Shown here one piece after another: positions 59,696 to 63,343 of a stretch of DNA of 64,000 nucleotides. Source of the DNA: Neoarius graeffei (Eukaryota > Chordata > Actinopteri > Siluriformes > Ariidae); contig NC_083582.1 in assembly GCF_027579695.1 (NCBI RefSeq), positions 33,683,464-33,747,463 of the forward strand, in the 5' to 3' direction. The notes under the pieces were generated by a model that was not told the DNA's origin, searched no databases, and saw only the letters and a program-made list of their open reading frames with translations. The position numbers were made by a program, and so were the translations under genes. Numbering within the stretch: position 1 is the stretch's first letter; each line of letters starts with the position of its first letter.

Positions 59696-61537
59696 AAATT
59701 TTTTTGGAAACTTATGACTTTAACGTCACTACATTTGAAAGACAAATATCGTACTTTTCACTCCATTACATTTCTATCAAGGTCCTCGTTACTCGTTACT
59801 ATAAAGTGGCTTTGAAAGTGGATGTTTTTTCTTTTCTAAAAAGTGGCTGGTTTTTTCACAGGTGACATTGAGACAGCTGATCAGTAATCAGTAAGGTCGC
59901 GTCACGTCCATAGACTGGATAAAATCAAATTTGATGATTTCTCCGCAGCATTATTTAACATGATCAGTTGATGGCAGAATGGAAGGAGGCGGTTCTTCTG
60001 GGGAATGCACGCACTCATGGCTATAGCTAGAACCCATGTTTGAGTTTTCTGAAAGGAATAAAGAGTCGTTTCATTTTAAATGTTTGCTTTGTTTGCCTAA
60101 AACGAACCACATCACGGCCTACGAAAACTCGCTGTCCGACCTGCGGAAGCATATTGAGGTATATAAACGTTTTGTTTCAAGAGAAAGCTTGCAATGAAGT
60201 TGTCTGTGCTTTTAGAGCTAGCGATAATGTTGCAATTGCTATGCAGTCGGGTTAGTCAAATGACTTTCTATGGATTTTCCCGCCAAGTTGCCATCGCCTT
60301 GTCCATGGCTAACGTTTACACATAGCCAGTTAATTTGGACACTGTTAGTTAGCATGTAAAAACAGAGTTACACTAACATGAATAACATTAACTTATCTGA
60401 AGTGCTTTCAGAAATGTTTTAGCATAATCCTGCCAAATAAACAATGTAGAAACCTTTCTTTTCTAGTAACGTTAGCTACCCAGTATGATTTTGAGTTTGA
60501 AAAGATTTTGCTAGCATGTCAGGTGGAGCTTCACTGACTAGCTTAACGTTAAACCACCATGATTCCACAGGCAGATTCATATGTGCATGAATACATACAC
60601 TTGCGTGCGTGCATGCACACACACGCACACGTGAGACCTGTGAGATGGACAGTATTGTACTAGTCAGTCACAACAAATTGTTGGAATTTTTTGTTTTGAT
60701 GTCAGATGATGGTCTTGCACTTTTTTGTCTTGCTTATCTGCCGATGGCATGCTTTTCTTGCTTGTCTGGTGACGGCATGCCAGAATGGCTTGTGACCCAT
60801 AACAGTTCTGATTTCATCTGCTGAAGCGAGACCAGTATCGCACATCAGTTGGTTGACATATGACAGCAGTGTTGCTGTTGGGCAGTTATTAAGCTCGAGG
60901 TGTGGACCTGGGTTTTAATCAGGTTGGATTGTCACTTTTATTTTCTGAGCAAGCTGCATTTACAGCTATTCCACTGTCTTCCTGATTAACATGCACATGC
61001 ATGTGTGCACACACTGACAGAGCTGGGTCAGAACACTACCATGCTGCTTTGTGGGGTGGGGAGGAGTGTTACAATTAAAAAAAATGACAATGGCGCTTCT
61101 TTTGTCAATTCAGTTGTGTTTCATTTTGTAACACTCTACCAGGTGTTTATTCTACAGGTTTTACATGCTAGTCAGTAAATCCAGTCGGTTGCTTCAGAGG
61201 CATTAGGTTTTGTAAGCACTATGGCAATAATACAACAATGCATTGACAGAAAATGTACTTTTAACACTTAAGTATTTTTAAAAGCAAATACTTCAGTACT
61301 TTAACTTAAAGGGGTACCAAATATAATATATACAGTTGCTGATGTGACAAAGTAACGTATTCTTAAGTATTCTATCAAATTTATATACTAGAAAACAACA
61401 AAATATCTTGGTAATTGTAAATATAATACTTTATACGCTAAACCGCACAAGAGTTGCCATTTTTAAAAGACCGTGACGTCAGCGCTACCCACTGCACTAG
61501 CAGAACTCTCCGAAATAGAGGAGATAAGCGTATAATC

Positions 61538-62116
61538 ATGGCGTCGGGCGCATCAAGTGAAAGCGACAGCTCTGTCGAATCATACGAAGAGATCCCGCAA
61601 GACACACTGCAAGCAGGCTATGGCTTAGAAGGGTACCAGTTTGAACCTAGGAGAGGTACTCTCGACTCCGGTGATGAAATAAGAGAAGAAAGCTCGGATG
61701 ACGGCGAGGATGAGACTGATGCGGACCATGGGCATGGCGAGCGTGGGGCAGAGCGTCTGCGTGCAGGTGACACGGCGTGGTGCTCGTGCGGAAAATGTAA
61801 CGTGGAGTTGCTCACGAGTCCAGCAGAATTTATTTGCTGCAATGAGATAGGCGCCACCTGTGGACTTGCGAAATCGTCGCAAGAGGCAGAAACAGGTATT
61901 TCACACATGCTATTGAGGTATTTCACCCACGTGACCAAGTCATGTGATGCTGCCATTTTGGACGGCACAGCTCGAATCAGTTTGAATGCGAGGAAGGCGA
62001 CAAACGAAAAACATAAAAGAAAAAGGAGCGAGATGCAGAAAACACCTTCACTATCCAGCGACGTAGGGCATTTACAGGGCGAGCAGAGGGAGAGGTATTT
62101 GCAAAAATTGAGGTGA
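61538..62116 (+). pseudogene. P2X7-tail-like Cys-rich segment
   Basis: Frame begins MASGASSESDSSVESYEE, then an acidic stretch (about residues 45-75) and GDTAWCSCGKCNVELLTSPA, EFICCNEIG. The C-x-C-x2-C ... CC pattern resembles the zinc-binding cytoplasmic ballast domain of P2X7 receptors, which occurs alone in many fish genes. A possible donor (CAG|GTATTT) lies near 61,895; the rest of the domain is missing. A CRE-like TGACGTCA sits at about 61,473-61,480. The frame ends at TGA 62,114-62,116, and coding-like text continues beyond in the same frame. Confidence 0.55.
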
Positions 62117-62381
62117 GCAGGCTTAGAGAACGACGTTTACCTGCTTCCACCAGGATTGTTCACTGACGTACGGAAGTACACGAAGCCCTCGTCTTTACCT
62201 GACTTCGGCACACATGATCTGTATACCTATGTCGTTAAAAACCCATCGCCATACAGAGGTATTGATCTGAAAGCGTACAAGAGTTTGGATACCTACAAAT
62301 ATTTTGTGTCAGGCTGGGTAACATGCCTACATCAGTGGGTCGTCCCTGGAGCCGGTGGTCGCCATCTTATTACAGCTAAGG
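62117..62381 (+). pseudogene. YqaJ/SWIM-family N-terminal segment, copy 2
   Basis: In frame with the preceding segment across one TGA: AGLENDVYLLPPGLFTDVRK, SLPDFGTHDLYTYVVKNPSP, YRGIDLKAYKSLDTYKYFVS, GWVTCLHQWV. The string DLKAYKSL...YKYFVSGWV is, from memory, characteristic of fish proteins with SWIM and YqaJ domains. It ends at a donor-like AAG|GTTTGT near 62,381; downstream exons are absent. Homologous to 43,892-44,128 at low identity. Confidence 0.55.
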
Positions 62382-62568
62382 TTTGTTCACATTTTCATTT
62401 ACTTTCGGTCCTCAGGATAAACAAAATGTTATTAAATGTCATTGAAATAACTTCTTAGTCTGTTGAGACATGGCCCGTTATAAATTTGCTGTTACCAGGC
62501 AATGACCAAGAACTGTATTATTAGGGTCGGTGTAGTTGTAGCAGTGTATTAGCAACTAGCTGTTAGCA

Positions 62569-62880
62569 CTAGCTAATGTCAACAACAGTAGCTGGTATGT
62601 TACTGTAGCAATGTTTACGTTCAGTCATTTGGATGACTGTTAAAACCTTTCAGTCTCAAGTTTTTCCTTTACTGGATTTACTAGTTTACTGAGCTAGCGC
62701 GCTCGGGCAAGCTGGGAGCTAGCGCGCGCTAGCCTGCCGGCGGCCAGCGCGCTAGCTCAGTAAACTAGTAAATCCAGTAAAGGAAAAACTTGAGACTGAA
62801 AGGTTTTAACAGTCATCCAAATGACTGAACGTAAACATTGCTACAGTAACATACCAGCTACTGTTGTTGACATTAGCTAG
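62569..62880. repeat. Perfect 135-bp inverted repeat (hairpin)
   Basis: Arm 62,569-62,703 and arm 62,746-62,880 are exact reverse complements by eye (135 of 135). The 42-bp loop (62,704-62,745) holds the palindrome GCTAGCGCGCGCTAGC. It lies inside the Kolobok-like element. Confidence 0.95.
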
Positions 62881-63343
62881 CTTGACGTTCAAAATGGCGG
62901 ACACCAGGGCGTCACGTGACCCTGTGACGTCAGGTGAAATACCTCGATTCCCAACCTCAATGAGCCAACACAACTGGGCACATACATACGTCATGAGTGT
63001 TACGCAGAGAAAATGAACGTGCATTCTGATTGGATAAAATTAATATCATGGCGGGCTGTTCAAACTGCGGAAATAGTTTGCTCAAGCTACTTTCAAAACA
63101 CTATAACTTTCCAACCTTAGAACAAAAAACTTTTGTAAGTCTTGAATAAGGTTCGTTAATGTGTGTTTTATTGTTATATTTACTCTATATATTGCCCTCT
63201 GTTCCCCTTTAAGGAAAAATTTGACTGTACAACTTTCACTTGTATTGGAGTGACATTAGACCAGTAGGATTTGTACTTTGACTTAAATAATGAAGTTGGG
63301 TACTTTGTCCACCTCTGCCTACAACAGACTTATTTTCCATTTA

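Follow-up and report, generated by a model that had tools for sequence, protein, structure and literature searches.

Transposons of the hAT superfamily have two inverted ends and an 8-bp target duplication. Autonomous Kolobok copies encode a DDD/E transposase, and those of ISL2EU a DDE transposase that carries an HTH/THAP domain. Kolobok elements are recognized by termini of the form 5'-RR...YY-3' and by a duplicated TTAA target, and it is the RR...YY termini that set them apart from piggyBac, which duplicates TTAA as well (section 3, PMC9587614). The Kol0 lineage of Kolobok encodes both a transposase and a protein called KolX. KolX resembles the tail of P2X7, and it has been proposed that P2X7 arose by fusion with such a transposon protein (Kojima and Bao 2022, PMC9587614). 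The ballast domain outside P2X7 had been described earlier by Rump and colleagues (PMC7016195). The ISL2EU group of PHIS/Harbinger-like transposons is characterized by the duplication of AT; its second gene is YqaJ, with a YqaJ exonuclease domain, its inverted ends usually start with GG, and its target is A-AT-T, with the AT in the middle duplicated (PMC4482050, PMC9179366).

How does the present locus compare? The sequence analyzed is a window of 64,000 nucleotides from Neoarius graeffei, to which all positions below refer. Near its right end lies what is, with high confidence, a nest of DNA transposons in three layers: a Kolobok-type element sits in a hAT-like repeat and itself holds an ISL2EU-type element. 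The nesting is demonstrated by target sites that are uninterrupted in other copies of the outer element and of the host repeat; what we infer are the names of the families and the transposases that would have moved the elements. Measured against Kol0 with KolX, the outer element likewise has a TTAA duplication, RR...YY termini, and a coding fragment like the P2X7 ballast (a weak match), but the window copy has no transposase, retains only a fragment of KolX, and is interrupted by another transposon. The inner element shares with ISL2EU the AT duplication and the inverted ends. It differs in starting with TG rather than GG, in a target that is mostly T-AT-A rather than A-AT-T, and in an internal inverted repeat of 135 bp.

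Nesting of two elements in a host repeat

The outermost layer is a host repeat that extends from 59722 to 63317 (no strand assigned) and is interrupted by the outer element. Its limits come from two other copies, of which L060 aligns from 59722 and L004 up to 63317. The sequence CAGAGGTGGACAAAGTA at 63300-63317 is a terminus that we take to be hAT-like. The likeness to the hAT superfamily lies in this right terminus, whereas the left end and the 8-bp duplication were searched for in the host repeat and not found. When the two flanks of the window unit are joined, L060 and L004 both match across them at about 88% identity. Neither contains the outer unit; in its place L060 has a single unfilled GTAA and L004 a single TTAA. 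The original prediction had the unit inserted cleanly in a hAT. The clean insertion is borne out by these two copies, and the hAT label is partly supported, through the right terminus.

The middle layer, 61310-63208 on the plus strand, begins with AGGGG, ends with CCCCT, and has a TTAA on each side (61306-61309 and 63209-63212, neither with a strand), just as had been noticed beforehand. It had been regarded as one element of 1.9 kb, and a search of the genome (2.34 Gb in 38 contigs) gave a different picture. Among the 40 places scored of 4293 candidates, so that all counts are lower bounds, the window matched itself over the full length of the query, and at least 39 other places matched only about 61911-62948, at 96-98% identity. 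The stretch 61914-62946 (plus strand) is a separate repeat of 1033 bp, and in at least 39 other places it occurs unaccompanied by the outer sequence.

What do other copies of the outer element look like at the point where the inner one sits? Outer copies were picked with the right arm (62949-63208) as query, and 40 places were scored of 1025 candidates. The arm matched itself and at least 39 other places, all at 100% identity after rounding, and the junction and the ends were inspected in all 39. None has the inner element at the window's junction site. In 21 of the 39, the outer sequence runs straight through the insertion point, with a single target in place of the window's AT, 1033 bp, and second AT; this dinucleotide is AT in 20 copies and GT in one (L022). 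In the remaining 18, what precedes the right arm is a different sequence, and these copies do not allow the insertion point to be tested cleanly.

The same question can be asked from the side of the inner family. The joined flanks of each inner copy were compared with the retrieved sequence, at most two matches per copy being considered, and 17 of 28 copies gave matches that span the junction. The junction is gapless with a single AT for L001, L002, L004, L029/L038, L033, L039, L042, L044, and L046. The matches of L006 have AC, and those of L003, L031, L036, L037, L041, and L048 are gapped, weak, or without the AT. No match to the joined flanks was found for the other eleven.

The nest would have formed in two steps. 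First, a non-autonomous Kolobok-type element, presumably moved in trans by a Kolobok transposase, would have inserted into a TTAA of a hAT-like repeat. That copy would then have been hit at an AT by the 1033-bp non-autonomous ISL2EU-type element, moved in trans, in its turn, by an ISL2EU transposase. Because neither element has a complete gene, both transposases would have been supplied from elsewhere.

The inner element and its assignment

Ends and flanks of the inner family were read in 28 of the 40 places, that is, in the window and 27 others. The AT on the left of the element (61912-61913) is present in 26 of the 28 and that on the right (62947-62948) in 27; no strand applies to either. 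The inverted-repeat search returned terminal inverted repeats at 61914-61927 (plus strand) and 62933-62946 (minus strand), and the terminal sequence of the family is TGAGGTATTTCACC. By eye, the flanks differ among the 28 copies, save for L029 and L038, which have theirs in common. On contig 13 these two are separated by about 5 kb and point in opposite directions, as though an inverted duplication of the stretch had taken place. Divergence from the majority sequence averages 1.1% over the 28 copies (0.96% for the window copy), and this low value suggests that the family spread recently.

Within the element is a further inverted repeat, a perfectly complementary pair of 135-bp arms at 62569-62703 (plus strand) and 62746-62880 (minus strand). 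In the window copy, 42 nucleotides separate the arms, and the repeat matches in reverse in 39 other copies at 91-96%. As a separate observation, the target beside the insertion held, at 61894-61907, the sequence AGGTATTTCACA before the inner element arrived, which agrees with 11 of 13 letters of the element's own end. The idea that the inner element generally favors sites like its own end was considered and rejected, as only 2 of the 28 copies (L001 and L005) reach 11 of 13 within 60 bp.

The coding part of the inner element, 62033-62380 on the plus strand with a putative start and splice end, is open in the majority of the 28 copies. We take it to be YqaJ-like from an apparent resemblance to fish YqaJ-type proteins. 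The AT duplication lends this name indirect support, as it is the mark of ISL2EU, a group in which YqaJ is the second gene (PMC4482050, PMC9179366). Of the YqaJ/SWIM segment that had been predicted, the coding-like open frame stands, but the inner segment gave no Pfam match. When viral contigs were scanned with this protein fragment, nothing matched. The piece looks like what is left of a gene belonging to the inner element itself, probably ISL2EU's YqaJ gene.

Is the family then ISL2EU proper? The name is a best fit from termini, target duplication, and gene fragment, and on these sequence features the element is probably a non-autonomous member of the ISL2EU type. The nest could be just as described and the inner family belong to another AT-duplicating group. 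Pointing that way are the TG with which the ends start, where the cited paper gives GG as usual; the target, with T before the duplication in 22 of 28 copies and A after it in 22 of 28, hence mostly T-AT-A; and the absent Pfam match. These points, like the weak P2RX7_C match and the hAT left end that was not found, concern the names and leave the nesting untouched. Against another group are the apparent likeness to fish YqaJ-type proteins and the AT duplication, seen in nearly all copies and as a single AT at unfilled sites, which is the very feature given for ISL2EU in PMC4482050 and PMC9179366. Such a placement outside ISL2EU is unlikely. It is also unlikely that the family forms a lineage of its own close to ISL2EU, likewise duplicating AT, marked by TG ends, a T-AT-A target, and a long internal hairpin, and recently spread in this genome.

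The outer family and its KolX-like fragment

The outer element has AG...CT termini, which fit the 5'-RR / YY-3' pattern of Kolobok, and the 4-bp TTAA duplication of that group. Its terminal stretches are 73% complementary over 37 nucleotides in an inverted-repeat search, and the terminal sequence of the family is AGGGGTACC. The TTAA is shared with piggyBac, but the AG...CT termini differ from it and are of the Kolobok type, so piggyBac is ruled out. These ends and the TTAA support the internally deleted Kolobok that had been proposed as one reading of the unit. Judged by termini, target duplication, and gene fragment, the name that fits best is that of a non-autonomous, internally deleted Kolobok-type element, enlarged here by the inner one. 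No Kolobok transposase is present in the window copy. Of the 39 other loci of the outer element, four (L049, L057, L061, and L067) had their reading frames inspected by eye, and neither a Kolobok nor an ISL2EU transposase was recognized there. Inside the outer element of L057 is a frame that we take to resemble Tc1.

Are the ends particular to this copy? On the contrary, the TTAA and AGGGG ends, whose absence elsewhere would have spoken against the original prediction, are common to many copies. A TTAA follows the right end in all 39 other copies. A motif scan found the left end in 35 of them, each time preceded by TTAA (35 of 35), and these 35 copies measure from 634 to 2825 bp. The left arms of L061 and L067, both short copies, were missed by the motif scan and brought out by BLAST, and no left arm was found by the motif scan in L011 and L020. 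In the 21 copies with an uninterrupted target, the aligned pieces of the left arm show 94.9-98.5% identity with the window.

A second structural class accounts for 18 of the 39 outer copies (L010, L013, L014, L016, L017, L020, L024, L028, L052, L056, L060-L065, L067, and L068), which have different sequence upstream of a near-identical right arm. Their left arm is only 88-91% like that of the window in the nine copies where it was measured, all copies having been chosen by their match to the right arm.

Left of the insertion point, at 61538-61897 on the plus strand, is the coding fragment that had been described as like the tail of P2X7. Its match to Pfam P2RX7_C is weak: the window frame scores E=0.021 and the copy L025 E=0.0037, both below the curated cut-off. 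The 120-residue fragment occurs in five other loci at 97-98% identity. A possible splice donor is the GT that follows 61895. Searches of solved structures with the KolX-like and the YqaJ-like fragments returned matches at chance level only (best E, 0.76 and 0.49, respectively).

Where does this piece come from? To judge from its sequence, it looks like a remnant of the outer element's own accessory gene KolX. The alternative that had been put forward is that a Kolobok trapped host exons, among them an exon of P2X7. The weak P2X7-like Pfam match is what speaks for such trapping. The piece, however, is found in other copies as a component of the outer repeat family, and KolX, which Kolobok itself encodes, is reported to be such a protein (PMC9587614). 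Because the segment belongs to the repeat family elsewhere and fits the published description of KolX, the trapped exon is disfavored and, at the strength of this evidence, highly improbable; the P2X7-like piece is probably the KolX of the outer element and not of host origin. Read as a KolX remnant, it adds the outer family to the Kolobok-type families that have a KolX-like fragment, in agreement with the published proposal of a transposon origin for the tail of the immune receptor P2X7.

The shared reading frame and other inserts

The two coding-like segments had been seen to lie in one phase with a single TGA between them, and so they do: the KolX-like frame and the inner frame share their phase, and the TGA is at 62114-62116. 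How much should be made of this? A random insertion in this orientation has a one-in-three chance of producing a shared phase. As for the TGA, among the 28 inner copies read it occurs in that of the window alone, the other 27 lacking it. The shared frame is a coincidence, and the two pieces are not one gene. The second segment arrived as part of another transposon, one with ends, a duplication, and copies of its own, and the joining of the two segments in the original prediction was wrong.

The segments would be one unit if a Kolobok lineage carried a real KolX-YqaJ fusion, or a set of two accessory genes, of which the window held a damaged copy; the single phase inside TTAA-flanked ends and the lambda-exonuclease-like nuclease of the published KolobokE lineage (section 3, PMC9587614) lend it some color, but its probability is next to nil given a target that is uninterrupted in 21 of 39 outer copies, an inner element with ends, duplication, and at least 39 other places of its own, and a single full-length composite among the 40 places scored. 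The uninterrupted sites contradict a fusion gene or new accessory set. That the segments might never occur together elsewhere had been named beforehand as a finding that would tell against the fusion, and this is what was seen among the scored copies: they are joined in 1 of 40 scored places (of 4293 candidates), which is the window itself, and in none of the 39 other outer copies at the window's site. A search of the full-text literature, in the parts of articles available, turned up no report of a KolX-YqaJ combination. With three nested transposons in its place, a false gene fusion is removed, and the case illustrates how nested transposons can imitate a new set of accessory genes when one copy alone is read.

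Inserts were also observed at other points of the outer element. Nine of the 21 outer copies with an uninterrupted target (L015, L018, L019, L023, L050, L053, L054, L057, and L058) are split at one place, corresponding to 61647-61660 of the window, and two of the 21 are split near 61708-61716. Two inserts of the 61647-61660 group were compared, those of L018 and L023; they are alike and have long inverted arms. It looks as if the insert at 61647-61660 had been copied together with the outer element, and inserts within the outer element may travel with it.
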